Assembly (NCBI RefSeq): GCF_033060595.1
Contig: NZ_CP133038.1
Coordinates: 434,001 to 498,000, forward strand
Length of the DNA: 64,000 nucleotides
Reading direction: 5' to 3'
Source of the DNA: Pyramidobacter sp. YE332
GTDB lineage: Bacteria; Synergistota; Synergistia; Synergistales; Dethiosulfovibrionaceae
This document shows, piece by piece, positions 9,633-61,983 of this stretch. The notes under the pieces were generated by a model, which was not told the origin of the DNA, ran no database searches, and saw only the letters and a list, made by a program, of their open reading frames with translations. A program made the position numbers and the translations under genes. Within the stretch, counting starts at the first letter, position 1, and the number at the start of each line of letters is the position of its first letter.

Positions 9633-9653
9633 GAGAAAGCAGGAGGTCAAAAG

Positions 9654-10760: not shown

Positions 10761-10824
10761 CGCGGCGTTCGCGCTGAAAACGCATCGAGCGAATCAACAA
10801 AAATTTTTGAGGAGGATACTGACA

Positions 10825-11285: not shown

Positions 11286-11333
11286 GCCGGAAGACCGTGA
11301 TTTTTGAGCCGATCAATGGAGGTGTTCAACTTT

Positions 11334-12686
11334 ATGAGTCAATATATCCCCAACACCGAGGCTGATCGCCGCGCGATGCTCGACGTCATCGGCGTCGCGT
11401 CGATCGACGAACTGTTCTCGGATATTCCCGCTCAGGTCCGCCTGGCCAAGGCGCTCGACCTGCCCGAGGCGCTTTCCGAGCCTGAATTGGCGTGCCATCT
11501 GCGCGCGCTGTCGGGAAAGAACAAGAACCTTGACGAGCTGACCTGCTTCCTGGGCGCCGGCTCCTACGACCATTTCATCCCCGCCGCCGTCGATACGATC
11601 GTTTCGCGCGGCGAGTTCACCACCAGCTACACGCCCTACCAGCCGGAAGCGGCTCAGGGCACGCTGCAGGCCATCTTCGAGTACCAGACCATGGTCTGCG
11701 AGCTGACCGGCATGGAAGTCTCCAACGCTTCGATGTACGACGGCGCCACCGCCGCCGCCGAAGCGATGGTGATCGCGGCCGCCGAAACGCGCCGTTCGCG
11801 CCTGCTCGTATCGTGCAGCGTCAATCCTGAAACGGTCCGCGTGCTCGGCACCTACTGCTGGAGCCGCGGCTATGAACTGACCGTCCTGCCCTGCAAGAAT
11901 GGTCAGCTTGATCGCGAAGCCCTAAACGCCGAACTGTCCAAGGGCGACGTGGCGGCGTTGCTGTTGCAGACGCCCAGCTTCTTCGGCGTCGTCGAGGATC
12001 TGACCGGTCTGGCCGACGAGCTGCACGCCGCCAAGGCGCTGCTGATCGTCTCCACCGACCTGCTGGCGCTGGGCTGCCTCAAGGCTCCCGGCGAGTTCGG
12101 CGCGGACGTGGTCGTCGGCGACGGACAGAGCGTGGGCAGCAGCGTCAGCTTCGGCGGCCCCGCTTTCGGCTTTATGGCCGCCACGAAAAAACTGATGCGC
12201 AAGATGCCCGGCCGCATCGTCGGCCGGACCAAGGACGTCAAGGGGCGCAACTGCTACGTGCTCACCCTGCAGGCCCGCGAGCAGCACATCCGCCGCGAGA
12301 AGGCCACGTCGAACATCTGCTCCAATCAGAATCTGTGCATCGTCGCCGCCTCGGTCTATCTCAGTCTGATGGGGCCGCGGGGACTGCGCGAAGTGGACGA
12401 GCGGATCCTCGCCAAGACGGCCTACGCCGTGGACGCTCTGGTCAAGACCGGCAAGTTCCGTCCGGCTTTCGCCGGTGCTCCCGCGTTCCGCGAAGTCGTG
12501 CTGATCTGCGACGAACCGGTCGCCAGCCTCAACGCCCGCCTGCTCGAGGCCGGGATCCTCGGCGGCCTCGACCTCTCGAAGAGCCATCCCGAACTCGGCA
12601 ACGCCTGGCTGCTGGCTGTGACCGAACAGCGCACGAAGGAAGAAATCGACCGCCTTGTGTCGATCGCCGCAGGAGGTGACCGCTAA
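11334..12686 (+). CDS. gcvPA: glycine dehydrogenase (decarboxylating) subunit 1
   Basis: A 450-aa first subunit of the split P protein. It begins with the [18 protein letters not shown] motif typical of GcvPA and carries the [16 protein letters not shown] segment near residue 78 and the [16 protein letters not shown] motif. With GcvPB it decarboxylates glycine using PLP and passes the aminomethyl group to GcvH. ATG 11334 follows GGAGGTG. Its stop overlaps the gcvPB start as TAATG, indicating translational coupling. The split form is common in Firmicutes, Thermotogae and Synergistota. Confidence 0.96.
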
Positions 12687-14146
12687 TGCTCCGCCCTGTT
12701 GAATCTCTGTTCGAAGCCAGCCGTCCCGGCCGCGTCGGTTATTCGCTGCCCAGGCTCGACGTTCCCGCCGCGCCGGCGAACGCCCTTGGCGGCATGGCCC
12801 GCGCGGAAGCTCCCCGTCTGCCGGAGATGGCGGAAGTGGATGTGGTGCGCCACTTCACGCGCCTGTCCCATCTCAACTTCTCCGTCGACGAAGGATTCTA
12901 TCCGCTCGGTTCCTGCACCATGAAGTACAATCCCAAGATCAACGAAGCGGCCGCCCGTCTGCCCGGCTTCGCCCGCATCCACCCGCTGCAGCCGGAGAGC
13001 ACCGTACAGGGCGCGCTCGGCCTGATCCACGACCTGTCCGCGATGCTGGCGGAGATCACCGGCATGGCGGCCGTCACGCTGCAGCCGGCCGCCGGCGCTC
13101 ACGGCGAACAGACCGGCCTGATGCTGATCAAGAAGTACCACGAAGACCGCGGCGACCTCAAGCGCACCAAGATCATCGTCCCCGATTCGGCCCACGGCAC
13201 CAACCCCGCTTCGGCCACCGTCACCGGCTTCGAGCCGGTGGCCGTGCCTTCCGACAAGGACGGCATGGTCGACCTGAACGAGCTGGCCAAGCTGATGGAC
13301 GACACCGTGGCCGGGCTGATGCTGACCAACCCCAACACGCTGGGCATCTTCGAGAAGAACATCCTCGAACTGACCGACATGATCCACAAGGCCGGCGGCC
13401 TGTGCTACTACGACGGCGCCAACGCCAACGCCATCGTCGGTCAGGTGCGCCCCGGCGATATGGGCTTCGACGTGCTGCACCTCAACCTGCACAAGACCTT
13501 CAGCACGCCGCACGGCGGCGGCGGCCCCGGCGCGGGCGCGGTCGGCGTCAACGAGAAGCTGCTGCCCTATCTGCCCACGCCCATCGTGGTCCGCAAGGAC
13601 GGCGCCTATACGTTGGAGACGAAGGCCGAGCATCCCAAGAGCATCGGCAGCGTGCGCAGCTTCTACGGCAACTTCGGCGTGCTGGTGCGCGCCTACGCGT
13701 ACATCCGCAACCTCGGCGCCGCCGGGCTGAAGGAAGTTTCCGACATCGCCGTTCTGAACGCCAACTATCTGGCCGCGAAGATCGGGAAGTTCTACCCGCT
13801 CGCCGTCAACGGCTTCTGCAAGCACGAGTTCGTGGCCGACGGCAGCGAGCTCAAGCACGAGACCGGCGTGTCCACCATGGACGTCGCCAAAGGCCTGATC
13901 GACGCCGGCTATCATCCGCCCACGACCTACTTCCCGCTCATCGTCCACGAGGCGCTGATGATCGAGCCGACGGAGACCGAGTCCAAGGAAACGCTCGACG
14001 GCTTTGTCGACGCTCTGCAGAAGATCGTCGAAGAAGCCAAGGCCAAGGGCGCGGAAGAATTCCACGCCAAACCGCACAGCACCGTGATCGCGCGTCCCGA
14101 CGAAACCGAAGCGGCGCGCCATCCCGTTCTGCGCTGGCAGTTCTAA
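12686..14146 (+). CDS. gcvPB: glycine dehydrogenase (decarboxylating) subunit 2
   Basis: A 486-aa PLP-bearing subunit of glycine decarboxylase. The Schiff-base lysine lies in [16 protein letters not shown] near residue 271. The N-terminal [22 protein letters not shown] region (about 52-73) and [13 protein letters not shown] are conserved family elements. It shares one base with the gcvPA stop codon. Together GcvPA, GcvPB, T, H and L give the complete glycine cleavage system, which in an amino-acid fermenter yields CO2, ammonia, NADH and methylene-tetrahydrofolate. Confidence 0.96.
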
Positions 14147-14267: not shown

Positions 14268-15623
14268 ATGTATGATCTGATTGTCCTCGGCGGCGGCCCC
14301 GGCGGCACGCGCGCCGCGGAACTGGCGGCCCGTTGCGGCATGCAGGTCGCGCTCGTGGAAAAAGCCCACCTCGGCGGCACCTGCCTGAACCGCGGCTGCA
14401 TCCCCACCAAAGCGCTCTATTCCCACGTGATCGGCGGCAAGGGGCCGCGCGAGGGGCTGTGGGCGCGCCTCGAAGGCGTGATCGACACGCTGCGCAAGGG
14501 CAACGCCCAGCTGATGAAGATGGCCGGCGTCAAAGTGCTGCGCGGGACCGGCGTCGTCACCGAATGGGAAGGAACCAAAAAAATGACCGTCACTCACGAC
14601 GACGGTTCTGAGGAACAGATCGAAGGCAAGCGCCTGCTGATCGCCGTCGGCGCGCGTTCCGTGCGCCCCGAGTTCGCCGGCAACGACCTGCCGCAGGTGC
14701 TCACCGGCGACTGGGCCATCACCGACCCGCAGCTTTGGGATCCCGAACGCAACGCCGACGTGCGGACCGTGGCCGTGCTCGGCGCCGGCGTGATCGCGCT
14801 GGAAATGGGCATGATCCTGCAGGGGCTGGGGAAAAAAGTGATCCTGCTCAAGCACTCCGACCAGATCCTGCGCCGCCTCGACGGCGACGTCAAGAAAAAA
14901 GTTGCGCTGGCCGTCAAGCGCCGCAAGACCATCGTCAAAGACTACGTGCGCCTCACCGAAGCCGTACCCGACGGCGACGGACTGATCCTGCGCGGCACGT
15001 CGAAAGACGAACCGTTCGAGGAGCGCTGCGACCGCCTCATCGTCGGCTCCAGCATGACGCCGATCCTCGAAGGCTACGGTCTGGAAAACAGCGGCGTGAA
15101 GATCGAAAAAGGCTGCCTCGCCGTGGACGCGCAGATGCGCGCCTCCGTCGACGGCGTCTGGGCCATCGGCGACTGTACCGGCGGCGCCATGCTGGCGCAC
15201 CTGGCCGAGTATCAGGCGCTGGCGGCCGTCAGCAGCATGACCGGCGGCGAGTACGCCGTCAACCTCGACGCCCTGCCCGCCTGCGTCTTCATTGAGCCGG
15301 AAGTCGGCACCGTCGGCCTTACCGAGGAAGAAGCCAAATCCCGCGGCATCGATTACGTGACCTCGCGCGCCTACTTCGCCGCCAACGGCATGGCGCTGGC
15401 CATGGGGGAGGGCGACGGCTTCGTCAAAGTCGTTGCGCGCAAGGCCGACGGCGTGCTGCTGGGCGTGCACATCATGGGGCCGGAAGCGGCGTCGCTGCTG
15501 GGCGAAGCGGCGCTGGCCGTGTCCAAGGGGCTGACCGCGCGCGACGTGGCCTATTCCATCCACGCGCATCCCACGTTGTGCGAGTGCTTCCGCGACGCCT
15601 GCCTGAGGATCGTCGAGGGCTAA
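14268..15623 (+). CDS. lpdA: dihydrolipoyl dehydrogenase (glycine cleavage L protein)
   Basis: A 451-aa FAD-dependent disulfide oxidoreductase that reoxidises dihydrolipoyl-GcvH with NAD. The FAD-binding GGGPGGTRAAELAARCG starts the protein. The redox disulfide is C39-LNRG-C44, the second nucleotide site is VLGAGVIALEMG near 176, VDGVWAIGDCTGG marks the FAD ribityl loop, and the C-terminal HAHPTLCECF carries the His of the His-Glu dyad. AGAAGGAGAAA precedes the ATG. Its place right after gcvPB identifies it as the L protein of this system. Confidence 0.95.
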   Translation: MYDLIVLGGGPGGTRAAELAARCGMQVALVEKAHLGGTCLNRGCIPTKALYSHVIGGKGPREGLWARLEGVIDTLRKGNAQLMKMAGVKVLRGTGVVTEWEGTKKMTVTHDDGSEEQIEGKRLLIAVGARSVRPEFAGNDLPQVLTGDWAITDPQLWDPERNADVRTVAVLGAGVIALEMGMILQGLGKKVILLKHSDQILRRLDGDVKKKVALAVKRRKTIVKDYVRLTEAVPDGDGLILRGTSKDEPFEERCDRLIVGSSMTPILEGYGLENSGVKIEKGCLAVDAQMRASVDGVWAIGDCTGGAMLAHLAEYQALAAVSSMTGGEYAVNLDALPACVFIEPEVGTVGLTEEEAKSRGIDYVTSRAYFAANGMALAMGEGDGFVKVVARKADGVLLGVHIMGPEAASLLGEAALAVSKGLTARDVAYSIHAHPTLCECFRDACLRIVEG

Positions 15624-31179: not shown

Positions 31180-32163
31180 ATGAGTGAAAACGACAAGAAC
31201 CTCCTTGAAGTCAGAGATCTGACGATTCATTATTTCGTCGATAAAACGGTGGTCAAAGCGGTCAACGGCATCAGTTTTGCCCTGGCGCAGGGAGAATCTC
31301 TCGGCCTGGTCGGCGAAACCGGCGCCGGGAAAACCACGACGGCTCTCGGCATTATGCGTTTGGTCCCCAATCCTCCCGGGCGTATCGTCGGCGGCTCTAT
31401 CCTCTACAAAGGGGAGGATCTCTGCAAGAAATCCGAAGAGGAGATGCGCAAGATCCGCGGTCACGAGATCTCCATGATCTTTCAGGATCCGATGACGGCG
31501 CTGAACCCCGTACTGACCGTCGGCGACCAGATCGCCGAGGTCATCGGCCTGCACCGGAAGATCGCCAGGAAGGAAGCGCTGCGCAAGGCCATGGAAATGA
31601 TGGAAATGGTCGGCATCGAGGGCGGACGCTGCCACGAATATCCCCATCAGTTTTCCGGCGGCATGCAGCAGCGCATTGTCATCGCCATTGCGCTGGCCTG
31701 CAATCCTTCGCTGCTGCTGGCCGACGAGCCGACGACGGCGCTGGATGTGACGATCCAGGAACAGGTGCTGCACCTCATCGAAACGCTCAAGAAGCGTTTC
31801 GGCACGTCGTTGGTGCTGATCACCCATGATCTTGGCGTTGTGGCCGAAGTCTGCGATCGAGTGGGCATTGTCTACGCCGGAAACATCGTGGAGTACGGCA
31901 CGCTGGAGCATATCTACAACCATACGTCGCATCCCTATACGCAGGGACTGTTCGGCTCGATCCCCAACTTCGACAAAAAAGTTCGCCGCCTCAAACCGAT
32001 CGCCGGTCTGATGCCCGACCCCGCCAACCTGCCCGACGGATGCGTATTCGCCGCCCGTTGTCCGGAGGCGAGGGAATCCTGCCGTCACGGCGTCATTTCC
32101 AACGTGGAGATCGCCCCCGGCCATTTCGTGCGTTGCCTGAACTTTGCGGGCAGAGGGGAGTAG
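31180..32163 (+). CDS. peptide ABC transporter ATP-binding protein (DppD-type)
   Basis: A 327-aa ATPase with Walker A GETGAGKTT (near residue 45), Q-loop FQDPMTALNP, signature FSGGMQQR and Walker B LLLADEPTTALD. The C-terminal OppD/DppD extension includes LPDGCVFAARCPEARESC, a Cys-rich segment that in related ATPases holds an iron-sulfur cluster. It pairs with the DppF-type ATPase two bases downstream. Confidence 0.94.
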   Translation: MSENDKNLLEVRDLTIHYFVDKTVVKAVNGISFALAQGESLGLVGETGAGKTTTALGIMRLVPNPPGRIVGGSILYKGEDLCKKSEEEMRKIRGHEISMIFQDPMTALNPVLTVGDQIAEVIGLHRKIARKEALRKAMEMMEMVGIEGGRCHEYPHQFSGGMQQRIVIAIALACNPSLLLADEPTTALDVTIQEQVLHLIETLKKRFGTSLVLITHDLGVVAEVCDRVGIVYAGNIVEYGTLEHIYNHTSHPYTQGLFGSIPNFDKKVRRLKPIAGLMPDPANLPDGCVFAARCPEARESCRHGVISNVEIAPGHFVRCLNFAGRGE

Positions 32164-32165
32164 CC

Positions 32166-33176
32166 ATGTCTGCGATCCTTGAAGTCGTCGATCTGAGAAA
32201 GTATTTCGAGACGCCCCGCGGTCTGCTGCACGCCGTGGACGGCGTGTCCTTTGCCATCGAACGGGGCAAGACTCTCGGCGTCGTGGGCGAATCGGGCTGC
32301 GGCAAATCCACGTTGGGGCGTACCGTGATCCATTTGCAGGAACCGACATCCGGCACGATCGTCTTTGAAGGGCGGGACATCAGCCGCGTTGACGAACATC
32401 GGCTCAAAGATCTGCGCGAAGACATGCAGATGATTTTTCAGGATCCCTTTTCGTCGTTGAACCCGCGCATGTCCGTCGGCCAGCTGATCGCCGAGCCTCT
32501 GCTGATCTATAAGAAACACGGAACTGAGCGCGAACTGGCGCGTCACGTCGCCCGACTGATGGATACCGTCGGCCTGGCGCGCCGTCTGGCGAACTCGTAT
32601 CCCCACGAGCTCGACGGCGGACGCCGGCAGCGCATCGGAGTCGCCCGCGCCCTGGCGCTGGAACCGAAGTTCATCGTCTGCGACGAGCCCGTGTCGGCGT
32701 TGGACGTGTCCATTCAGGCGCAGATCATCAACCTGATGCAGGATCTTCAGGAAGCCATGAACCTCACCTATATGTTCATCACCCACGACATGTCGGTGGT
32801 CCGCCATGTTTCCGACGATATCATGGTCATGTATCTGGGCAGCATGGTGGAGTTTGCCGATTCGGAAGAAATGTTCAACGTCCGTCTGCATCCCTACACG
32901 CAGGCCTTGCTGGCCGCCGTCCCCATACCGGTGATCGGAGCGAAGAAGGAGCGCTCGTTGCTGAAAGGCGAGATCACCTCGCCTGTCGGGCTCGGCGACG
33001 GATGTCGTTTTGCGAAACGCTGTCCTCATGCCGAGGATCGCTGCTTTCGGGAAACGCCCAGGCTCGACGAGCTCCGCCCGCGCCACTTTGTCGCCTGCCA
33101 CCGGGCGCGGCAAATCAATCGGCTGAGTTTAGACAAGCGTTTGGAGCTTAGACCGGAAAGGCTGGACTTTTCGTAA
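32166..33176 (+). CDS. peptide ABC transporter ATP-binding protein (DppF-type)
   Basis: A 336-aa ATPase: Walker A GESGCGKST near residue 41, FQDPFSSLNPRMSVG, signature [15 protein letters not shown], Walker [13 protein letters not shown] and the C-terminal [14 protein letters not shown] motif. ATG 32166 follows GGGGAG at the end of dppD; a longer frame from 32040 lies inside dppD. It is a near-copy of the truncated ATPase at the left edge of the window. Last gene of the transporter operon, which ends at the 20-bp terminator at 33191. Confidence 0.94.
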   Translation: MSAILEVVDLRKYFETPRGLLHAVDGVSFAIERGKTLGVVGESGCGKSTLGRTVIHLQEPTSGTIVFEGRDISRVDEHRLKDLREDMQMIFQDPFSSLNPRMSVGQLIAEPLLIYKKHGTERELARHVARLMDTVGLARRLANSYPHELDGGRRQRIGVARALALEPKFIVCDEPVSALDVSIQAQIINLMQDLQEAMNLTYMFITHDMSVVRHVSDDIMVMYLGSMVEFADSEEMFNVRLHPYTQALLAAVPIPVIGAKKERSLLKGEITSPVGLGDGCRFAKRCPHAEDRCFRETPRLDELRPRHFVACHRARQINRLSLDKRLELRPERLDFS

Positions 33177-33190
33177 AACTTTGTAAATAA

Positions 33191-33238
33191 CTGTTGGGAT
33201 GGCGTAAACGTGACCGTTTGCGCCATCCCAACAGTTTT
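33191..33238 (+). terminator. strong intrinsic terminator of the ABC operon
   Basis: CTGTTGGGATGGCGTAAACG (33191-33210) pairs with 33215-33234 (one G-U pair) over a 4-nt loop, followed by TTTT. Confidence 0.85.
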
Positions 33239-33283
33239 AAGGCGTGCTTTATGCGTGCCGGCAGAATGCCCGGATTACGAGCG

Positions 33284-34003
33284 TCAATAGTTAAGCGTGG
33301 AATCCATCTCGTATTCCCATTTTTCAGTAAAAACGTATTGATTGCTCACCCACACGGCTTTCCCCTGGTTGTCGGAGAAGAAACGACGAACTCTTAGAAC
33401 CGGCGTGTGTTCAGCGACCTGCAAATAATCCGTGATCTTTTTAGGCGGGATACGAACGGCAAGTTTCTCGTGAACGCGGCAGATCATGGTGTTGAATTTA
33501 GAGGTCAGCATCTCCTTCATGGAGATAAAATCTCCTGCCGCTTTGAAAATGGAGAGGTCAAAACGCTGCGGAAGATAATGTTCAAAGACGAAGACGGGGG
33601 TTTCTTCGATACATTGGCTGCGGATCAAATAAGTCGTTTGCTCCTTTTTGCCCAAATTCAGGAAGGTTTGGATGTCCCGATCGTGCGGGACCTTCAGGGA
33701 GATCTCCAGCGTTTGGGTTGAAAGCCGGTCCCAATACTGCTCATACACGTTCACAAAGCCTGTGGCGGTAAACCAAGGGTGCGTGCGCACCTGCTTGGTG
33801 ACAAAAGTCCCCTTGCCTTGGAGGCGGAGAACGAGCCCTTCGTTTTCGAGCGCCCCCAGAGCCTGTCGTACCGGGGCGCGGCTGGTGCCGTAAATTTTCT
33901 CGAGATCGGCCTCCGTCGGCAGCATTGCCCCCGGCTTATAGAGTCCTTCGCAGATCTTGTACTGTAAATCGCGATAAATTTGATAATAAAGAGGTATAGT
34001 CAT
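33284..34003 (-). CDS. GntR family transcriptional regulator, HutC/UTRA subfamily
   Basis: A 239-aa regulator. The N-terminal winged helix contains LYYQIYRDLQYKICEGLYKPGAMLPTEADLEKIYGTSRAPVRQAL; the rest is a UTRA ligand domain (about 95-235). HutC-type regulators sense small metabolites such as urocanate or amino-sugar phosphates. It is convergent with the eight-gene operon upstream, so it may control it, as the FCD-type GntR at 5015 may control the sister cluster. GGAGA lies just upstream of the ATG at 34003. No clear operator was found. Confidence 0.9.
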   Translation of the reverse strand: MTIPLYYQIYRDLQYKICEGLYKPGAMLPTEADLEKIYGTSRAPVRQALGALENEGLVLRLQGKGTFVTKQVRTHPWFTATGFVNVYEQYWDRLSTQTLEISLKVPHDRDIQTFLNLGKKEQTTYLIRSQCIEETPVFVFEHYLPQRFDLSIFKAAGDFISMKEMLTSKFNTMICRVHEKLAVRIPPKKITDYLQVAEHTPVLRVRRFFSDNQGKAVWVSNQYVFTEKWEYEMDSTLNY

Positions 34004-34105
34004 TTCATTGTCTCCAGAAGTGTGCGATAGTTTCCCCTCTCATTATCGATTTTTGAAATAATAAGTCGGGGCCTCAACTGACGTGTCGCTGTTCAGTGAT
34101 AATGT

Positions 34106-34205
34106 CATGCTGTTTCTTTATTGATTCGGGTCGAACTCAAGACGCTGCGAGGAAAATCCACAAAGCGAACGGCGCAGCTCGCTTCGCGGGGTTCCCGCGC
34201 GGCCC
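34106..34205. repeat. degenerate copy of the dispersed inverted-repeat element
   Basis: The block CTGCGAGGAAAATCCACAAAG near 34144-34164 closely matches the inner part of the element at 36999 (CTGCGAGGGAGATTCACAAAG), and the left edge (near 34109) resembles its terminal repeat. The right half appears lost next to the end of the following gene. Confidence 0.4.
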
Positions 34206-34574
34206 TCAGCGCTGCGTCCGGTCCAGTTCGGTCCAGCCGAAATCCGCCGCTTCGGGCTGCCAGCGCAGCAACAGCGAGGAATCGGCAAGGTGCACGACGG
34301 CCCAGCACGGCGCGACGAAACAGAGTTGGGCGTTTCCGGGCAGATCGGGCCGGGCCGCGCGCAGAGACTTCTCCAGCGCCGCGCGGTTCAGGCGGTCATT
34401 CCATCGTGGTTCGGGAGCCATCAGGCGCATCCGCGCCGCCAGTTCGGCGGAATCGCGCGTCACTTTGCCGCTGCGGGCGACGACGCCCCAGAGGACGACG
34501 GTGCAGACGACGAGCGCCAGCGCGGCCGCGAGCGCCATGACCTTCGCCGACGGGCCGAGAGGATTGGGCTTCAT
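34206..34574 (-). CDS. hypothetical membrane-anchored protein
   Basis: A 122-aa protein with one N-terminal transmembrane helix (about residues 11-32, VMALAAALALVVCTVVLWG) and a short soluble domain with two cysteines (LCFVAPCWAVVHL) near residues 85-90. Family not recognised. It begins at the base before the rlmN stop codon, so it is co-transcribed with rlmN and probably translationally coupled. The last codons border a degenerate repeat. Confidence 0.65.
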   Translation of the reverse strand: MKPNPLGPSAKVMALAAALALVVCTVVLWGVVARSGKVTRDSAELAARMRLMAPEPRWNDRLNRAALEKSLRAARPDLPGNAQLCFVAPCWAVVHLADSSLLLRWQPEAADFGWTELDRTQR

Positions 34575-35648
34575 TTAACTGACCGTCTTGCCGCGCAGCT
34601 GGCCGCAGGCGGCGTCGATGTCGGTCCCATGCTCCTTGCGCACTTCGCACTCCACGTTCAGCTCTTTGAGGATCTTCATGAACGGCGCGATGCGGCTGGC
34701 CGAAGGGCGGGCGAATCTCGTGCCGGCCACGGGGTTGTAGGGGATCAGGTTCACGTAGACCTGCAGGTTCGAGAACAGCGTCGCCAGCTCGTAAGCGCAG
34801 TCCGGCGTGTCGTTGACGTTCTTGAGCATGACGTACTCGATGGTGAGGCGCACGCCGGTCTTCTGCTGCCAGTATTCGAGCGCGCTGAACACGGCGCCGA
34901 GCGGGAAGCGCTCGTTCACGGGCATGATGCGCGATCTCAGCTCGTTGTTGGGCGCGTGCAGCGACAGGCACAGGTAGATGTCCAGCCCTTCGTCGGCGAG
35001 GCGGCGGATGCCCTCGGGGATGCCGGACGTGGAGATGGTGACGTGCCGCACGCTCAAGCCCCGCATCTTCGGCTCGAGGAACATGCGCACGGCTTTGACG
35101 ACGTTCTCGTAATTGAGCAGCGGCTCGCCCATGCCCATGAAGACGACGTTGTTGATATCGTGCCCGACGTCGGACTCCATGGCGGCGAAATGCGAGACGA
35201 TCTCGCCGGCGCTGAGGTTGCGCCTGAAGCCCTGCTGCCCCGTGGCGCAGAACTCGCAGCGCAGCGGACAGCCGACCTGCGAGGAGATGCAAGCCGTGTA
35301 GTGGTTGCCGTGGTCCATCAGCACCGACTCGACGTACTCGCCGTCGTCGAGCCGCCATAAGTACTTGCGCGTGCCGTCGGCGGCCGTCTGCCGCTTGGCC
35401 AGTTTCGGCAGCCGGATCTCCAGCAGCTCGGGCAGACGCTCGCGCAGCGCTTTGGACAGGTTGGTCATGGCGCCGAAGCTGAAAACTTTCTTCTTGTAGA
35501 TCCACTGGCACAGCTGATCGGCCGTGTAGCGCGGCATGTCCAGCTCTTCCTGCACGAAACGCTCCCAGTCGGCCAGCGTCATCTCGAAAGCGCTGCGCTT
35601 CGCCGCGGCTTCGGGCGCGTTCGTCACGTTCAGTTCGTCGTTTTCCAT
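34575..35648 (-). CDS. rlmN: 23S rRNA (adenine(2503)-C(2))-methyltransferase
   Basis: A 357-aa radical SAM enzyme that methylates A2503 of 23S rRNA (and A37 of some tRNAs). The cluster motif is C127-PLR-C131-EF-C134, followed by ATGQQGFRRNLSAGEI. GMGEPLLNYENV (about 173) and the SLHAPNNELRSRIMPVN segment are conserved. C-terminal cysteines (near 335 and 350) include the methyl-carrying one. Length is normal. A GGGAAAGAAA ribosome site precedes the ATG. Confidence 0.96.
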   Translation of the reverse strand: MENDELNVTNAPEAAAKRSAFEMTLADWERFVQEELDMPRYTADQLCQWIYKKKVFSFGAMTNLSKALRERLPELLEIRLPKLAKRQTAADGTRKYLWRLDDGEYVESVLMDHGNHYTACISSQVGCPLRCEFCATGQQGFRRNLSAGEIVSHFAAMESDVGHDINNVVFMGMGEPLLNYENVVKAVRMFLEPKMRGLSVRHVTISTSGIPEGIRRLADEGLDIYLCLSLHAPNNELRSRIMPVNERFPLGAVFSALEYWQQKTGVRLTIEYVMLKNVNDTPDCAYELATLFSNLQVYVNLIPYNPVAGTRFARPSASRIAPFMKILKELNVECEVRKEHGTDIDAACGQLRGKTVS

Positions 35649-35776
35649 TTTCTTTCCCTTTTCCTTTCATGAAGGCCGGCGCTTCCCCAAACGGCAAAGC
35701 GCCGCCCGGCCTTTCGATTACGAAAAGCATAACAGTTTTATTCCCCGCTGACAAGGCCGCCGTTCGGCGCGCAAAG

Positions 35777-35797
35777 AAAAAGACGCCCGAGGGCGTC
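35777..35797 (-). terminator. intrinsic terminator of the aminotransferase gene
   Basis: GACGCC-CGAG-GGCGTC (35782-35797) is followed on the minus strand by TTTTT, nine bases after the stop codon of the gene at 35806. Confidence 0.75.
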
Positions 35798-35805
35798 CTC
35801 TCGCT

Positions 35806-36897
35806 CTATTGCCCCGCGTCGATCCGTTCCATGGCCGTCAGGACTTTTTCGAGGCGAGGCCCGATAGGCACGCGCAGGCGCGCCGCGTTGCGCCCCGCAA
35901 AGCCTTCGCAGGAGACGGCACGCACGCCGCGGCGGGCGAACTCGCGCGCCAGGTCGACGTTCGAGTCGGCGTGGACGACCATGCAGATCGCCACGCTGTC
36001 GGTCGTATGCGCGAAAGAAAGATGCCGCCACGGCCGCATCAGGCTTTTTTTCGCGGCGGCGGTGCGGGCGCGCAGCTCGTCCAGGAACTCCGGTTCGCTC
36101 AACGCGGCGGCGGCCACGCGGCGCGAGAGCGACGACACGGCATAGGGATTGGAAAGGGTGTTCGCCGCCGCGGCCAGCTTGGGAGGCAGGAGCAGGTAGC
36201 CGGCGCGCAGCCCCGCCAGCCCGAATCCCTTGGAGAAGGAACGGGCGACGAGCAGGTTGTCGTACGCGTCGAACAGGCTCACGGCCGAACGCCCGCGCGG
36301 CACGTAATCGCCGTAGGCTTCATCGACGAGCACACAGACGTTCGCCTCCCGCGCCGCGGCGAGGATCTCCTCGAGCGCGGCGGGCGGGACCGCCTGTCCC
36401 GTCGGATTGTTGGGATTGTCGAACGCCGCCAGCTTGAAGCGCGGCGACAGCGCCGCCGCAAAACGCGCGGCGCTGAAACGGTAATCCTCCTCCGCTTTCA
36501 GCGGCACCGTCTCAAAAAAGCCGCCGTGCAGACGCACGTCGGCGCCGTACTCGAAAAACAGCGAAGCGCCGCCCAGCACGCGGTCGCCCGGTTCCAGAAA
36601 CAGCCGGTTGACGAGATACAGACTGCTGACGGAGCCTTCGGTGAGGACGATGTTCTCGTTTCCCAGCGCGGCATGATCCTTCCAATAGGCGGCGATCGCC
36701 TCCTTCAGTCCGTTGGCGTGGGGATACGGCGCGCACATGTTGAAATCGAGCGCCGCGAAGGCTCGGCGCGCCGCCGGCGAAGCCAGTTCGACGTTAACGC
36801 CTTCGCCGCAGTCCACTTCGCAGGGCGGCGTTTCCGTTCCGAGCGCGTAGCTGACGCGGGGCTGGTTTCTGACGGCGCGGGTGATGCGATATTCCAT
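35806..36897 (-). CDS. class I/II aminotransferase, histidinol-phosphate aminotransferase-like
   Basis: A 363-aa fold-type I PLP enzyme resembling HisC and threonine-phosphate decarboxylases. PHANGLKEAIAAYW near residue 60, FDNPNNPTGQAVPP near 160, VDEAYGDYVPRG near 190 and the Schiff-base lysine in ARSFSKGFGLAGLRAGYLL near 217 are visible. A C-terminal Arg (RVPIG) could bind a carboxylate or phosphate. No his genes are nearby, so the substrate may be another amino acid. ATG 36897 follows GGAGGAC; the longer frame is not supported. Confidence 0.88.
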   Translation of the reverse strand: MEYRITRAVRNQPRVSYALGTETPPCEVDCGEGVNVELASPAARRAFAALDFNMCAPYPHANGLKEAIAAYWKDHAALGNENIVLTEGSVSSLYLVNRLFLEPGDRVLGGASLFFEYGADVRLHGGFFETVPLKAEEDYRFSAARFAAALSPRFKLAAFDNPNNPTGQAVPPAALEEILAAAREANVCVLVDEAYGDYVPRGRSAVSLFDAYDNLLVARSFSKGFGLAGLRAGYLLLPPKLAAAANTLSNPYAVSSLSRRVAAAALSEPEFLDELRARTAAAKKSLMRPWRHLSFAHTTDSVAICMVVHADSNVDLAREFARRGVRAVSCEGFAGRNAARLRVPIGPRLEKVLTAMERIDAGQ

Positions 36898-36927
36898 GGC
36901 GTCCTCCTGAAAAACGTTGATGTGCAC

Positions 36928-36996
36928 ATTATAGTACGGCGCCGACGGAAATCAAAAACGTTCCGCCGGATCATACGTGACCGCCAGCGGAACGTT
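36928..36996 (-). promoter_or_regulatory. promoter of the aminotransferase gene with an upstream insulating terminator
   Basis: Minus-strand -10 TATAAT (36933-36928) and -35 TTTGAT (36956-36951) are 17 bp apart. Immediately upstream a hairpin AACGTTCCGC (36957-36966) / GCGGAACGTT (36987-36996) followed by TTTGATT can stop incoming minus-strand transcription. Confidence 0.55.
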
Positions 36997-36998
36997 CA

Positions 36999-37159
36999 AT
37001 ACCCATTTCTCGGGCAAAAAGCCGGACACGAGGGCGCTGCGAGGGAGATTCACAAAGAGAGCCGCGCGGACCGCGCGGCAGTCGAGGTAGTTCTGGGCGA
37101 GTGAACTTCCTCGCAGCACCCGGAAAACTATGTTGACGCTTTCTATCAAGAATCAGTAT
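36999..37159. repeat. dispersed inverted-repeat (MITE-like) element, copy A
   Basis: About 161 bp. The left end ATACCCATTTCTCGGGCAAA and the right end (complement) ATACTGATTCTTGATAGAAA form imperfect terminal repeats. The interior has a second inverted repeat, GGGCGCTGCGAGG near 37032 against CCTCGCAGCACCC near 37109. The whole architecture recurs at 40064-40184. No open frame. Right end carries TTGACG-N18-TATGAG, a possible outward promoter. Confidence 0.65.
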
Positions 37160-37178
37160 GAGAGGAGAACGGCCGTGC

Positions 37179-37184
37179 TATAAT
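37179..37184 (+). promoter_or_regulatory. -10 box ahead of the lip cassette
   Basis: A consensus TATAAT lies about 45 bases upstream of the first lip gene, just outside repeat copy A. The matching -35 is not clear at the normal distance. The stretch 36898-37228 contains no gene. Confidence 0.4.
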
Positions 37185-37228
37185 AAATAAAATGTTTCTG
37201 CAGAGATATGACTGAAAGGAACGCCGCC

Positions 37229-38128
37229 ATGACCGCCGACGAATTGACAAGACTTTCGCTAAAAGCAAGGGCCGCGGTCGAGCGCGCTTGGAACACGGCC
37301 CGCTCGCATTTTCCGCCGCAGCTGATCTGCGATCGTCCCGGCTCCACGCTCGCCGTTTCGCTTACAGGCGCGAAGTGCGCTCTCAACTGCGCTCACTGCG
37401 GTGGGCACTACCTCGAGGGGATGACTCCAATTGAAAAAATTGAAGCGGCTCTCGCGACGGGGCGCTATACCAGCTGTCTCCTTTCGGGCGGATGCACGCC
37501 GGCCGGCAAGGTTGAAGTCGCCCGCCAGGAAAAACTCGTAATGCGGCTTAAGAGCCGCGGGCTGAAAATCAACGTGCACGCCGGCCTCATCAGCCAGGCC
37601 GAGATCGACGTTTTAGCGCCGCTCGCCGATCGGATCTCATTCGATATGGTGACTGACGATCGGACTATCCGTGATGTATTTGGTCTGACGCGTACCGGAG
37701 ATGATTATATTGATACTTATCGCCGGCTGCGCGCCGCTGGAGCCCGGGTCGTCCCTCACATTTGCGTCGGCCTCTGGGGCGGTCAGGTGCGTGGCGAGTA
37801 CGACGCGCTGCGCGTGCTCGCCGAACTTGGCGCTGACGCGCTGGTCTTTATCGTTCTCATACCGACCCCCGGCACGGCTTTTGCCGACCGCCAGCCGCCT
37901 CCGCTTGAGGATGTCGCGAACGTCTTTGCCCGCGCGCGGGAACTGTTCCCGCGCCAATCGATCAATCTTGGATGCATGCGTCCGGCAGGACGCTACAGAG
38001 CCGAACTTGACACGCTTGCCGTCGCCAGCGGTCTCAACCGTCTTGTGAATCCCACGCCGCCGGCGCTGCGCCTGGCGCGCTCGCTCGGCCTTAAGCTCAT
38101 TGACCGGAAGGAGTGCTGCGTATTGTGA
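37229..38128 (+). CDS. radical SAM protein, LipS1/LipS2-type lipoyl synthase component
   Basis: A 299-aa radical SAM protein with the cluster motif C50-ALN-C54-AH-C57. LLSGGCTPAGKV near 85 is a likely SAM-contact loop. It is coupled by GTGA overlap to a second radical SAM gene and then to a LipM octanoyltransferase. That trio matches the two-protein lipoyl synthase (LipS1 plus LipS2) known from Thermococcus and from genome surveys, in which the pair inserts the two sulfurs into octanoyl-lysine. Which partner this is I cannot say from sequence. ATG 37229 is favoured over 37208 because AAAGGAA lies between them. Confidence 0.78.
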   Translation: MTADELTRLSLKARAAVERAWNTARSHFPPQLICDRPGSTLAVSLTGAKCALNCAHCGGHYLEGMTPIEKIEAALATGRYTSCLLSGGCTPAGKVEVARQEKLVMRLKSRGLKINVHAGLISQAEIDVLAPLADRISFDMVTDDRTIRDVFGLTRTGDDYIDTYRRLRAAGARVVPHICVGLWGGQVRGEYDALRVLAELGADALVFIVLIPTPGTAFADRQPPPLEDVANVFARARELFPRQSINLGCMRPAGRYRAELDTLAVASGLNRLVNPTPPALRLARSLGLKLIDRKECCVL

Positions 38129-39162
38129 AGATACGTCTGTCAATCGGCACCGCGGCTGCCCTTGGTCTTGCGCGTCTTAAATCCGACGCGCTTCCCACCA
38201 CAGCGTATCTGATGGATACGGGCGGCAGATGCGCGCACAATTGCGCGTTCTGCGCTCAGGCGCGAGAGGCCGAAACTGGAGAAGATCATCTCTCAAGGGT
38301 TATCTGGCCGGTTTATGACTTAGGAGACGTTCTCAGCGGCCTTATCACCGCCGCTCGAGGCGGGACTATTCGCCGTGCGTGTATTCAGGTTACCCTGAAC
38401 GCCGGTTCCTTTGAGCGCACCCTCGTTATTCTCAAAGCCGTGACGAACGCAGTATCGCTCCCCGTCAGCGTCTCGACCAATATCACCTCCGCCAGCCAGG
38501 TCGATCGACTGATGGGAAGCGGGGCGGCGCGAGTAAGCATTGCGCTTGACGCCGCTACTCAATCCCTTCATGATCAGGTGAAAGGCACGGGCTACGCTCG
38601 CAAGGTCCAACTCCTGACCGAGTGCGCGAGGCGCTACCCCGGCCGAATCACCACGCACTTCATCGTCGGTCTTGGAGAGTCGGAGGAAGACGTGATCGCC
38701 GCGATACAAAACATGCACGACCTGAATGTCACCGTGGGGCTTTTCGCCTTCACGCCTCTGCGCGGCACGCGCATGGCGAAGTGCCCGCCCCCCGAGGCCG
38801 GACGCTACCGTCGCGTTCAGCTGGCAAACTGGTTGATCAAAACGAAACGTCGGCGCGTTTCCGACATGTCTTTTTCGAATGGGCGACTCTCTGGCATTGA
38901 CGGAGACATAAAAGAACTGCTGTCAGTCCTATCCTCCGGCGAAGCGTTTGAGACGGCGGGATGCCGCGACTGCAACCGTCCTTACTACAACGAAAATCCC
39001 GGACACGGCGTGATGTACAACTACCCTCGCCCGCTGAAAAACTCAGAGGTCATCCAGGCCTTGAAAGAAACGCATTTATTTGCTCAGACAGACCTGAACG
39101 ATCTGACGCCCGTCACCGGCAAGGAAACAAGGAGGTGCCCTCATGAAATGGCGATTCATTGA
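38125..39162 (+). CDS. radical SAM protein, LipS1/LipS2-type lipoyl synthase component (second)
   Basis: A 345-aa radical SAM protein resembling biotin/lipoyl synthases. The cluster motif is C35-AHN-C39-AF-C42. HFIVGLGESEEDVIAAI near 180 is typical of the biotin-synthase-like branch. A C-terminal GCRDCNRPYYNENPG (near 285) supplies further cysteines that could hold the auxiliary, sulfur-donating cluster. GTG 38125 is chosen: it follows GGAAGGAG and overlaps the previous stop as GTGA. It overlaps lipM by 20 bp. No canonical lipA or lipB lies in the window. Confidence 0.8.
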   Translation: MKIRLSIGTAAALGLARLKSDALPTTAYLMDTGGRCAHNCAFCAQAREAETGEDHLSRVIWPVYDLGDVLSGLITAARGGTIRRACIQVTLNAGSFERTLVILKAVTNAVSLPVSVSTNITSASQVDRLMGSGAARVSIALDAATQSLHDQVKGTGYARKVQLLTECARRYPGRITTHFIVGLGESEEDVIAAIQNMHDLNVTVGLFAFTPLRGTRMAKCPPPEAGRYRRVQLANWLIKTKRRRVSDMSFSNGRLSGIDGDIKELLSVLSSGEAFETAGCRDCNRPYYNENPGHGVMYNYPRPLKNSEVIQALKETHLFAQTDLNDLTPVTGKETRRCPHEMAIH

Positions 39163-39970
39163 TACCGAAATCCATTCGGGCGCGTGGAACATGGCGATCG
39201 ACGAGGCCGTTATGACCTGTTGCGCCGCCGGACGCGTGCCGCCGACTCTTCGTTTTTACCGTTGGGGGCCTCCTGCGCTCACGCTGGGGTATTTTCAAAA
39301 GGCCGAACGCGACGTGAACTTCGACGCCTGCGCTCATCTCGGCATCGACGTCGTGCGCCGTCTCACCGGCGGCCGCGCCGTTCTTCACGATCAAGAATTG
39401 ACCTACAGCATCGTTATGCCTCATGAGGGGTGCCCGTTGCCCGACAGCATCACTGACTCGTATCGCGTGCTCTCCAGAGGACTGGCCGAAGGCTTTCGGA
39501 TACTCGATTTGCCCGTAACGATGAGTCATCCGGCGCCGAGAAGCGGTAAACCGGGAAGTTCCGCGGCCTGCTTCGACGCCCTTTCGGTCTGGGAGCTTGA
39601 AGCGGACGGCAAAAAAATTGTTGGGAGCGCCCAAGCCCGTCGCTTTGGCTCCGTACTCCAGCATGGTTCAGTGCTCAACGACCTGAATCCGGAGATGCTT
39701 TTTGCAACCATGAAGGACGAAAACCCTCGGAGATTGGAACGGGCCAAGGCGACGTTTCTTGAAAAAGCGACGAGTATACGCCATCTCACTGGCCGCCCGC
39801 TTCCGTGGAACGAGCTCTTTGACGCGTTCAAAGAAGGCTTCTTCATCGCGTTGGAGCGCGATCTGGACGCTCATTTCGTGGAAGACGACTTGACTGACGA
39901 CGAGCTTTCGTTGGCGGAGGACCTGATCGAAAATAAATACGCGACGCGCGATTGGAACCATCGCCGCTAA
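39143..39970 (+). CDS. lipM: octanoyl-[ACP]:protein N-octanoyltransferase LipM
   Basis: A 275-aa member of the biotin/lipoate A/B ligase superfamily that follows Bacillus LipM along its length: WRFIDTEI at the start, LRFYRWGPPALTLGYFQ, RRLTGGRAVLHDQELTYS near 72, and SSAACFDALS with the thioester-forming C143. The invariant lysine is in GKKIVGSAQ (about 158). LipM moves octanoate from acyl carrier protein to GcvH, making the substrate for the LipS pair. Lack of the LplA C-terminal domain separates it from the ligase at 8516. A strong AAGGAGGTG site precedes the ATG. Confidence 0.9.
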   Translation: MKWRFIDTEIHSGAWNMAIDEAVMTCCAAGRVPPTLRFYRWGPPALTLGYFQKAERDVNFDACAHLGIDVVRRLTGGRAVLHDQELTYSIVMPHEGCPLPDSITDSYRVLSRGLAEGFRILDLPVTMSHPAPRSGKPGSSAACFDALSVWELEADGKKIVGSAQARRFGSVLQHGSVLNDLNPEMLFATMKDENPRRLERAKATFLEKATSIRHLTGRPLPWNELFDAFKEGFFIALERDLDAHFVEDDLTDDELSLAEDLIENKYATRDWNHRR

Positions 39971-40021
39971 ACGCATGAAGCGCCGCATTCCCCAACGCAG
40001 GGAATGCGGCGCTTCATGCGT
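39971..40021 (+). terminator. long hairpin after lipM
   Basis: A perfect 22-bp stem: 39971-39992 (ACGCATGAAGCGCC...) pairs with 40000-40021 over a 7-nt loop. No U tract follows, so termination would be imperfect. It closes the lip cassette. Confidence 0.6.
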
Positions 40022-40063
40022 ATCAGATCCAGTTCAGTTGAAATGCAGGTGCAGCGCGCTTTG

Positions 40064-40184
40064 ATACTATTTCTTGATCGAAAAAGCCGAACACGAGGGC
40101 GCTGCGCGGCAGTTCCGAGCGGCTGAACTCCCTCGCAGCGCCTAAAAACCCATCCTAACACTTTCTATCAGGAATCAGCGTTAT
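40064..40184. repeat. dispersed inverted-repeat (MITE-like) element, copy B
   Basis: About 121 bp with ends ATACTATTTCTTGATCGAAA and, inverted, ATAACGCTGATTCCTGATAG. The interior ACACGAGGGCGCTGCG and CCTCGCAGCGCC match copy A (36999-37159). The two copies bracket the lipS-lipS-lipM cassette. The rest of 39971-40274 holds the lipM hairpin and the promoter at 40213. Confidence 0.65.
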
Positions 40185-40212
40185 GTACAGAAATTTATTT
40201 TTGAAATGATGA

Positions 40213-40274: not shown

Positions 40275-41537
40275 ATGAAAACTTACGAGGTGAAGATGGG
40301 TCGCGGCGTGCAGCGCTGGCAGAGCCCGTATGACTATATCGTCCCGCAGCCGCGCGGCCGCGGCCTGTGCGGCGCGTCGTGCTCCGTCGAGGAGGCGCTT
40401 GACCGCCCCATCGGTTCTCCCTCGCTGGAAGAACTGGCGAAAGACTCCCGCCGCATCGCCATCGTCGTGCCCGACGTCACGCGCGGCTGGTGCCGCGCCC
40501 CCGAGATGAACGCGGCGGTAAGAAAACGCCTTGCCGTCAACAAATCGGCCGAGGTGACGTGGATCGTCGCCACGGGACAGCACCGCGCCGTGGAAGAGCG
40601 GGACAAAGAACTGGTCTTCGGCGGCGCGATGATGTCCGGCGACCGCTGGCTCAGCCACGACTGCGAAGACGTCGTGGACACGGGGCTGGTCACGCCGCTG
40701 GGCACGCCGGTCACGCTCGATCCGGCCTTCGTCGCCGCCGATCTGGCGGTGCTGGTGGGCGGCATCACGTTCCACGACATGGCCGGCTTTTCGGGCGGGC
40801 GCAAGATGATCATGCCCGGCGTTTCCGGACGCCTTTCGATCGTCAAAAATCACAACCACTGTCTCAAAGACGGCGGACTGAATCCCGCCACCGACAGCGG
40901 CCTGCTGGAACACAACCCGATGGCGCAGGATCAGCGCGCTTACGCCGATCTGGCGCTGCGCGGCAAAAAATGCTTCGTCCTCAACACGATCGCCGACAGC
41001 GTGGGCGAGCCGGCGGCGTGGGTGGCGGGCGACATCTGGCAGGCGTGGGAGGCGGGCTGCCAGACGAGCCGTTCCTTCGCCTCGCTGTGGATCCCGCGCC
41101 GGGCGGCGCGCGCCGTCTCTTCCTGCGGCGGCTTTCCGCTGGATCTCGATCTTTACCAGGCCACCAAGGCGCTGTTTTCGCCGCTGGCGGCCCTGGAGCC
41201 CGGGGCGCCGATCGTGCTGGTCGCCGATCTGGAAGACAGCCTCGGCCCCGGCGATTTCGAGGCCTCGCTGCGCAGTTCGCTGCACGACGCGTCGGCCTTT
41301 ATGCGCCACATGGAAACGGCGTTCACGATCCCCGGCTACATCGCCCTGCGCACCGTGCTGGAAATGCGGGGACGCCCCGCGGCTCTGGTGACTTCGCGCG
41401 AGAACGTGCCTTTTCCCGGGCAGGTTTTCCGCGACATGCAGTCGGCCGAAAGGTGGCTGCAGGAACAGTCGGGAATGAACGGCCTGTCGATCCTGGTCCC
41501 CAGCGGCAACGCCGTCCACGTCCTCGCCGCGGAATAA
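40275..41537 (+). CDS. nickel-dependent lactate racemase family protein (LarA-like)
   Basis: A 420-aa protein of the LarA/DUF2088 family. Residues equivalent to the LarA active site keep the family spacing: H103 (ATGQHR), H167 (GGITFHDMAGFSGGRK), K177 and H193. In Lactobacillus LarA these are H108, H174, K184 (linked to the nickel-pincer cofactor) and H200. VVPDVTRGW near 64 is the usual DVTRP-type motif. No larB, larC or larE genes are adjacent, so cofactor supply must come from elsewhere. LarA relatives racemise or epimerise various 2-hydroxyacids, so lactate is not certain. Confidence 0.85.
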   Translation: MKTYEVKMGRGVQRWQSPYDYIVPQPRGRGLCGASCSVEEALDRPIGSPSLEELAKDSRRIAIVVPDVTRGWCRAPEMNAAVRKRLAVNKSAEVTWIVATGQHRAVEERDKELVFGGAMMSGDRWLSHDCEDVVDTGLVTPLGTPVTLDPAFVAADLAVLVGGITFHDMAGFSGGRKMIMPGVSGRLSIVKNHNHCLKDGGLNPATDSGLLEHNPMAQDQRAYADLALRGKKCFVLNTIADSVGEPAAWVAGDIWQAWEAGCQTSRSFASLWIPRRAARAVSSCGGFPLDLDLYQATKALFSPLAALEPGAPIVLVADLEDSLGPGDFEASLRSSLHDASAFMRHMETAFTIPGYIALRTVLEMRGRPAALVTSRENVPFPGQVFRDMQSAERWLQEQSGMNGLSILVPSGNAVHVLAAE

Positions 41538-42302: not shown

Positions 42303-42741
42303 TTTTTTATTGAGCCCCTTTTTCTGAAAGATAAACCCCCGCGCGGCAAAAAATCCTGCCGCGGGGGCTTTTTTGTCAAGCGTCCACGGGCACTGTAATG
42401 CTATTTCTCAATTAATAAGGATGGGCGCCCTGCAAACTCTGTTAATGCTTTTTGTCAAAAATAGTATAACACAGCCGCCCGTCCCTTTCCACGCAAGAGC
42501 GTCGCCCGGCAAAAGGAAGCCGGATTTTTTCGCTTTTTCAAAGAACGGGCAAAATAAATCAGGTAAGGTCAATGCCTTAAATCGCAAAATTTGCGCGAGC
42601 GCTTCCTTTTTGAGGAAAGTCCGTACGTCGGGAACGGCCGGAGCCGACGGATGGGGGCGCTGCCGAGCGGCGAATGTGGTATGATAAATTGCCTCCGCGT
42701 GGGGGCGCAAATTCTTTTACAGAGGAAACGGAACTTTGATC
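42303..42741. other. intergenic region with orphan hairpin and repeat copy C
   Basis: A hairpin (CCCCCGCGCGGCA 42336-42348 with TGCCGCGGGGG 42357-42367, then CT6) reads as a plus-strand terminator with no obvious gene before it. Repeat copy C follows (42398-42470). The remaining sequence to 42741 is the upstream region of the EamA gene; no further gene is seen. Confidence 0.5.
42398..42470. repeat. short copy C of the dispersed element
   Basis: Ends AATGCTATTTCTCAA and, inverted, ATACTATTTTTGACAAAAAG resemble the terminal repeats of copies A and B. The inner segment CTGCAAACTCTGTTAATGCT matches the right end of copy D (near 60227). Confidence 0.5.
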
Positions 42742-60111: not shown

Positions 60112-60264
60112 CCTCACGGTGTCAACGTGAGGATTCAGCCCAGGAATCAAAGTTGGGGAAAGATGTTTTTCAACTCCGGCAGAGTCGGAAAAATGTTTCG
60201 GCGCGCGGCGGCACTCCGCAGCGCTCTGCAAACTATATTGGTGCTTTTTATCAAGAAATAGGAT
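60112..60264. repeat. partial copy D of the dispersed element plus a palindrome
   Basis: CCTCACG (60112-60118) and CGTGAGG (60126-60132) form a hairpin. The right end CTGCAAACTATATTGGTGCT...TTATCAAGAAATAG (about 60226-60260) matches the terminal repeats of copies B and C. It abuts the thiD stop codon. The left end was not resolved. Confidence 0.4.
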
Positions 60265-61059
60265 TCAGTCCGCTTCTCTGACGGCCCAGGCGTGGTCGAG
60301 CGGCCCCGAGCCGCGCCCGAGATCCAGTCCGGCCCGCAGCGCGTCGGTGACGTAGGCTTTGGCGCGGCGCACGCTTTCTTCGACGCTGCGCCCCATAGCG
60401 AGATGGCAGGCGATGGCCGACGAGAGCGTGCAGCCCGTGCCGTGAGTGTTGGGGTTGTCCAGGCGCGGCGAATTCAGCCAGACGAGACGTCCTTCGCTGA
60501 GGAGCAGGTCGTCGGCGCAGTCGGTCAGATGGCCGCCCTTGATCAGCACGGCGCCGCCCAGGCCGGCGGCGAGGCGCCGCGCCGCCCGTTCCATGTCGCC
60601 GTGATCGGCGATGGCGAAGCCGCAGAGTGCTTCCGCCTCGGGGATGTTGGGCGTGATCACCGTCCCCAATGGCAGCAGTTCGCCGCGCAGCGCGCCGGTC
60701 GCGTCTTCGTCGAGCAGGCGCGAGCCGCTGGTGGCGACCATGACGGGGTCGACGACGACGTTGCGCGCGCCGAAAGCCTTGAGCCGGGCGGCGATGGTCG
60801 AGATGATGGCGGCGCTGGACACCATGCCGATTTTCACGGCGTCGGGGCGGATGTCGTCGAAGACGCAGTCGATCTGCTGCGCCACGAATTCCGGCGAAGC
60901 TTCGAGCACGCCGAAGACGCCGGTGGTGTTCTGGGCGGTCAGCGCCGTGATCGCGCTCATACCGTACACCTTGTGGGCCGCCATGGTCTTGAGGTCGGCC
61001 TGGATGCCGGCGCCGCCCGAGCAGTCGGAACCGGCGATCGTGAGGACTTTGTATATCAT
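60265..61059 (-). CDS. thiD: bifunctional hydroxymethylpyrimidine kinase/phosphomethylpyrimidine kinase
   Basis: A 264-aa ribokinase-fold enzyme that phosphorylates HMP to HMP-P and HMP-PP for thiamine synthesis. LTIAGSDCSGGAGIQADLKT opens the protein, VDPVMVATSGSRLL is near 105, and the anion-hole/catalytic motif NTHGTGCTLSSAIA near 208 is intact. ATG 61059 follows AGGAGTCTTTCC-type sequence. It is the second gene of the riboswitch-controlled thiE-thiD operon. Confidence 0.95.
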   Translation of the reverse strand: MIYKVLTIAGSDCSGGAGIQADLKTMAAHKVYGMSAITALTAQNTTGVFGVLEASPEFVAQQIDCVFDDIRPDAVKIGMVSSAAIISTIAARLKAFGARNVVVDPVMVATSGSRLLDEDATGALRGELLPLGTVITPNIPEAEALCGFAIADHGDMERAARRLAAGLGGAVLIKGGHLTDCADDLLLSEGRLVWLNSPRLDNPNTHGTGCTLSSAIACHLAMGRSVEESVRRAKAYVTDALRAGLDLGRGSGPLDHAWAVREAD

Positions 61060-61795: not shown

Positions 61796-61842
61796 AAAAT
61801 GACGGGGGAGAGCCTGCGCGCCGGTTCTCCCCCGTCATTTTT
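61796..61842 (-). terminator. riboswitch expression-platform terminator
   Basis: A long stem, AAAAATGACGGGGGAG (61796-61811) against CTCCCCCGTCATTTTT (61828-61842), gives a U-tailed terminator on the minus strand between the TPP aptamer and thiE. When TPP is bound it would cut transcription. Confidence 0.85.
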
Positions 61843-61849
61843 CAGAAAG

Positions 61850-61936
61850 CGCTTCCTTCGCCGGCATGATCCCGTATCAGGTTCAAAGGGTCGAGGCCGT
61901 GCGGCCTCCTCTCAGCCCGCCTGTGCGGACTCCCCT
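61850..61936 (-). ncRNA. TPP riboswitch (THI element)
   Basis: On the minus strand the conserved thi-box blocks are present in order: GGGAGTCC..., GGGCTGAGAGG, then GACCCTTTGAACCTGAT and ACGGGATCATGCCGGCGAAGGAAGC-type sequence (read as separate blocks). These are the pyrimidine- and pyrophosphate-sensor helices. Followed by the terminator at 61796 and the thiE-thiD genes. Confidence 0.95.
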
Positions 61937-61983
61937 GCGTGATGGAACTCCCGTTTGAAATTATAATCCCTGCGGCGCCCGCG

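Follow-up and report, generated by a model that had tools for sequence, protein, structure and literature searches.

Three overlapping genes on the plus strand of a Pyramidobacter genome encode LipS1, LipS2, and a LipM-type protein. They occupy positions 37229 to 39970 of the window, the 64,000-nucleotide stretch analyzed here, which corresponds to positions 434001 to 498000 of contig 1 in a 2.80-Mb assembly that is 97.5% complete. Judged from sequence, it is highly likely that the trio is a translationally coupled cassette for de novo lipoyl assembly, in which LipM would octanoylate GcvH and LipS2 and LipS1 would insert the sulfurs, standing in for LipB and LipA. A preliminary description of the window had proposed two overlapping radical SAM genes followed by a LipM-type gene, and the open frames confirm this layout.

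We infer a pathway, from donor and acceptor to GcvH specificity, octanoyl transfer, sulfur insertion, and reaction order, that would begin with octanoyl-ACP giving up its octanoyl group to Cys143 of LipM, from which the group would move to GcvH (10807 to 11226) at its lipoyl lysine. LipS2 would then insert the first sulfur at C8 and LipS1 the second at C6, an order taken from the Thermococcus kodakarensis enzymes (PMC9585515). Each synthase subunit is predicted to carry a radical-SAM cluster and an auxiliary [4Fe-4S] cluster, the latter being the likely sulfur source. Free lipoate would be salvaged by two LplAs, whose genes lie in the gcv operon and at a 2-oxoacid dehydrogenase locus.

Gene layout and the radical SAM pair

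The probable start of lipS1 (37229 to 38128), the gene for the predicted C6 subunit, is ATG 37229 rather than ATG 37208 of a longer open frame (37208 to 38128), since the former is preceded by GAAAGGA at a distance of about 8 nt. The gene for the predicted C8 subunit, lipS2 (38113 to 39162), likely starts at GTG 38125, which overlaps the LipS1 stop as GTGA. The predicted octanoyl-ACP:GcvH octanoyltransferase gene, lipM (39143 to 39970), appears to begin at ATG 39143, within a 20-nt overlap with lipS2 and with GGAGG upstream. This spacing suggests that the trio is translationally coupled, and its order is kept in two other genera at 56 to 72% identity. Counted from these starts, the CxxxCxxC motif occupies residues 50 to 57 of LipS1, as first described, and residues 36 to 43 of LipS2, where the original placement at 35 to 42 was off by one; in the longer frames the motifs lie at residues 57 to 64 and 40 to 47. 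An Rfam search returned no match at the cassette. Elsewhere in the window, the same database identified a TPP riboswitch on the minus strand (61836 to 61946; RF00059, 59.4 bits). Directly downstream of the cassette is a lactate-racemase-like gene with LarA N- and C-terminal domains (40275 to 41537, plus strand).

NCBI curated equivalog models, each with its own cut-off, place both radical SAM proteins within the LipS families rather than with LipA or BioB, as had been anticipated. LipS1 scored 291.5 bits against NF053742 (LipS1 equivalog; cut-off, 230; E value, 7e-87), and LipS2 scored 353.5 bits against NF053743 (LipS2 equivalog; cut-off, 270; E value, 9e-106), family matches that are far beyond chance. 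The LipA model TIGR00510 (cut-off, 310) gave LipS2 only 23.6 bits and listed no match for LipS1.

Residue conservation was assessed in an alignment of 10 homologs, those of the window and of nine other Synergistota genomes. Invariant in all 10 LipS1 proteins, numbered from ATG 37208, are C57/C61/C64, H184, C256, C303, and C304, corresponding to C27/31/34, H159, C230, C276, and C277 of T. kodakarensis; H63 and H124 are invariant too. The LipS2 alignment has exactly seven invariant Cys/His columns (10/10), C40, C44, C47, C90, H182, C284, and C287, corresponding to C39/43/46, C85, H178, C276, and C279. These equivalences were set by motif order and spacing. Mutagenesis showed seven Cys/His residues in each T. 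kodakarensis protein to be important (PMC9585515), and all of these cluster residues have counterparts here. While the two systems share both proteins, the T. kodakarensis genes are unclustered and partnered by the ligase LplAB (PMC9585515), in contrast to the clustering with lipM seen here. The LipS1/LipS2 pair is thus very probably the lipoyl synthase, in place of LipA.

The third protein as a candidate octanoyltransferase

The LipM-type protein consists of a single LplA-B_cat domain (PF21948, 126 bits), with neither LplB nor the C-terminal accessory domain (Lip_prot_lig_C). The cysteine in SSAACFDALS, singled out in the preliminary description, is present as Cys143, in a loop ahead of the GKKIxGSAQ strand, and we take it to be the equivalent of the catalytic cysteine in Bacillus subtilis LipM. 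An inserted loop of about 15 to 20 residues with (S/G)ACFDALS was found in all four proteins of the LipM set (window, G116, G115, and G110) and in none of 16 other aligned proteins, which comprised seven ligase-type LplAs, two bipartite LplAs, six LipB-type proteins, and one divergent member. The alignment also has TGGRAVLHD in the LipM set where ligases and bipartite LplA have GGG. A bipartite LplA in the sister family (G014) has a cysteine in the Cys143 column without the loop, so the cysteine alone is not diagnostic of LipM.

An AlphaFold model of LipM has the LplA/LipB fold (pLDDT, 87), with low confidence in the Cys143 loop (residues 132 to 146). Among solved structures it comes closest to the archaeal bipartite LplA ligases of Thermoplasma, and entries including 2p5i (Bacillus halodurans BH3822) and 2qhs (LipB) rank behind them. 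With ligases as its nearest structural neighbors, LipM is best described as a putative transferase. The best NCBIfam model was likewise the bipartite LplA large subunit, NF053750, at 146 bits, far under its cut-off of 480; this low score is weak by itself because the bipartite LplA of G015 also reaches just 224 bits. Membership in NF053750 also calls for an LplB partner gene, and the genome search found no free lplB. Tanabe et al. (2023; PMC10332631) propose that LipM derives from archaeal LplAB through loss of LplB, and the archaeal structural neighbors fit such an origin. The missing accessory domain and the Cys143 loop fit an octanoyltransferase, and the initial LipM assignment gains support from the loop, the absence of LplB, and the minimal relative described below.

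Lipoylation genes in the host and its relatives

Genome-wide searches extended the earlier report that no lipA or lipB is visible in the window. The only TIGR00510 match was LipS2 itself, at 19 bits, and lipB was absent; both searches gave matches in control genomes. The genome encodes three PF21948 proteins: an LplA ahead of gcvT, a second LplA at 1.788 Mb, and LipM, leaving no LipL candidate among them. It has no free-standing lplB, because both PF10437 matches sit inside the two-domain LplAs. The first of these (8516 to 9514; TIGR00545, 339 bits, cut-off 280; PF21948 plus PF10437) had been proposed as the salvage route and is indeed a two-domain lipoate-protein ligase, but it is one of two, the second adjoining genes for E2 and for an E3 that carries a lipoyl domain, close to E1 genes that are only a few genes further on. 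This 2-oxoacid dehydrogenase cluster is predicted to be another lipoylation target.

A complete glycine cleavage operon stands alongside, as was described. Downstream of lplA, all on the plus strand, are gcvT (9585 to 10760; NF001567, 421 bits, cut-off 300), gcvH (10807 to 11226; NF002270, 161 bits, cut-off 117), gcvPA (11304 to 12686; NF001696, 612 bits, cut-off 364), gcvPB (12686 to 14146; NF003346, 747 bits, cut-off 441), and a gene for a dihydrolipoyl-dehydrogenase-type flavoprotein (14268 to 15623), whose best match, TIGR01350 at 337 bits, is below the cut-off of 409. The predicted acceptor GcvH has the lipoyl-lysine motif ESVKGAND and is the single GcvH found in the genome.

LipS2 scored above cut-off in 10 of 188 Synergistota genomes. 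LipS1 adjoins LipS2 in all 10, as does an attachment enzyme, which is LipM in five and LplA with a free-standing LplB in the other five. In the window's family (G000, G118, G116, G115, and G110), LipS2 is followed by LipM, while in five genomes of a sister family (G011 and G013 to G016) LplA and a small free-standing LplB adjoin LipS1 in the order lplB-lplA-lipS1-lipS2. A contig scan returned one locus, in Pyramidobacter sp. C12-8, with the same gene order and a LipS2 99% identical.

LipA matches above cut-off came from 15 of the 188 genomes, and a few others gave fragments or scores close to the cut-off. Three sister-family genomes (G014, G015, and G016) carry lipA and a LipB-type gene in addition to LplAB-LipS1/S2; the lipA match of G015 falls into two segments (C1:76522-77154 and 74738-74947) separated by about 1.6 kb, suggestive of an interrupted gene. 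Two lipA matches above cut-off each contain one in-frame stop, TAG in G036 (C18:41903-42745) and TGA in G152 (C162:2328-3176), which may point to decay of LipA in other Synergistota or to errors of assembly.

Coupling of LipM to LipS1/LipS2 is best supported by the genome of one relative (G115), a single 1.68-Mb contig that is 99% complete, with a syntenic trio and a gcv operon. Genome searches there found LipM as the sole PF21948 protein, GcvH as the sole lipoyl acceptor, LipS1/LipS2 as the sole lipoyl synthase, and no PF10437 or LipA match; the single other Biotin_lipoyl match is a biotin carrier (EAMKMEN). With no other candidates, LipM and LipS1/LipS2 would be left for GcvH lipoylation, if any occurs.

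These data bear on what else the trio might do. The third protein could instead be an ATP-dependent, single-domain LplA-like lipoate/octanoate:protein ligase, with LipS1 and LipS2 using octanoate from the surroundings. We regard this as improbable even though its closest profile and folds are those of bipartite LplA catalytic subunits, the sister family uses lplB-lplA-lipS1-lipS2 in the same role, and the LplA-like protein of sulfur oxidizers, described as single-domain, is a ligase (PMC6067878): the cassette has no lplB, none was found in G115, the Cys loop and GGR change are missing from every ligase compared, and the genome already holds two full LplAs. Far more remote is a role for the radical SAM pair in inserting sulfur for biotin or for some other pathway than that of lipoate. 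Proteins of this kind used to be annotated as biotin synthases (PMC9585515), and the pair does show weak similarity to the BioB model TIGR00433, at 40 and 55 bits, but these scores fall far short of its cut-off of 225 while both proteins pass the LipS cut-offs, and an LplA- or LipM-type gene is adjacent in 10/10 genomes.

One variant is compatible with the preferred assignment of LipM as an octanoyltransferase: the enzyme would be general, octanoylating E2/E3 lipoyl domains as well as GcvH. The genome encodes such domains and no spare PF21948 protein to act as LipL, and broader LipM specificity is suggested in PMC10332631 for bacteria with LipM and LipA but no LipL. We nevertheless consider it unlikely, since the E2/E3 cluster has its own adjacent LplA and G115 keeps LipM with GcvH as the sole acceptor found.

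Descent of the cassette and relation to known systems

The cassette is missing from another genome of the same genus (G117, 98% complete), which retains the gcv operon and LplA. Absent as a block is the counterpart of window positions 36991 to 40180 on the plus strand. The G117 sequence on one side of the junction (G117:C8; L098:6642-6648) matches 32001 to 36990 and that on the other matches 40181 onward, at about 93% identity, and the aminotransferase gene from one flank stands directly beside the larA-like gene from the other. G116 and G118 have the trio together with its near flanks. Presence of the whole cassette therefore varies within the genus, and the G117 junction is clean, holding no copy of the repeat described below. 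Lipoylation in G117 presumably relies on salvage.

Identity of the trio proteins is 69 to 72% to G115 and 56 to 61% to G110, and that of the gcv proteins is 60 to 79% and 52 to 64%, respectively. Because the trio has diverged like the gcv proteins, descent within the family accompanied by recurrent loss is plausible and fits as well as recent horizontal transfer. Transfer was considered because third-position GC in the trio (0.65 to 0.68) is below that of its neighbors (0.83 to 0.92); other window genes are lower still, and the low values may be compatible with a transferred trio.

A dispersed intergenic palindromic repeat of about 150 bp, REP/MITE-like, with the form GGGCGCTGCGAGGGAG...CTCCCTCGCAGCGCCC and a TTTCTATCAAGAATCAGTAT-like tail, occurs at window positions 37015 to 37163 and 40075 to 40186, where two equally oriented copies bracket the cassette. 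Partial copies lie at 34129 to 34177, 42425 to 42471, and 60217 to 60265, and the repeat is also found at L010:6772-6919, L009:895-1038, and L016:304-448; one copy precedes the second lplA. A 149-bp element shared upstream of lipS1 and the second lplA was considered as a common lipoate regulator and rejected, because it is this dispersed repeat, with copies elsewhere. The direct orientation of the flanking copies raised the idea of repeat-mediated deletion in G117, which is unproven, with no copy at the G117 junction.

The combination of a bacterial transferase with an archaeal-type synthase, put forward in the preliminary description as a hybrid, is supported, but it is not a discovery, because LipM with LipS1/LipS2 has been reported for Synergistota. 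In Tanabe et al. (2023; PMC10332631), the combination is noted by co-occurrence in Synergistota, Thermotogota, Schekmanbacteria, and some archaea; members of these three bacterial phyla have lipS1/S2 with lipM and no ligase, and LipS1/S2 are inferred to act on transferase-octanoylated proteins. The enzyme types, phylum, and proposed division of labor are the same here, but this Pyramidobacter genome has two LplA ligases, and the genus is not named in that article's main text. The lplAB arrangements it mentions in Synergistota match the sister family described above. The article also describes lipS1-sLpl(AB)-lipS2-lipT cassettes of sulfur oxidizers, which similarly set the LipS pair beside an attachment enzyme but have a ligase, the target LbpA, and lipT, encoding the proposed electron donor, where the present cassette has LipM, GcvH as predicted target, and no lipT. 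B. subtilis shares a LipM-type octanoyltransferase with GcvH as first acceptor but uses LipA and LipL (PMC6067878), whereas Pyramidobacter has LipS1/LipS2 and no LipL candidate. Our literature search found only genome co-occurrence for LipM with LipS1/LipS2 (PMC10332631, as consulted) and no laboratory test of the combination; a search on Pyramidobacter and lipoic acid returned nothing relevant.

The Pyramidobacter trio is a further case of a published combination, more cleanly arranged and accompanied by two salvage ligases. The present analysis contributes the contiguous overlapping trio, the minimal relative G115, the cassette-minus G117, and the lplB-lplA-lipS1-lipS2 order of the sister family. 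We tentatively raise, as possible though doubtful, a split of lipoylation by target across the genus with no LipL relay, in which GcvH would be modified de novo through LipM and LipS1/LipS2 and the 2-oxoacid dehydrogenase would rely on its adjacent LplA and scavenged lipoate; cassette loss as in G117 would then turn a lipoate maker into an auxotroph. Together with G115, in which GcvH and these enzymes are the whole lipoate system found, the trio makes the pathway directly testable, and G117 would offer a natural prediction on lipoate auxotrophy.
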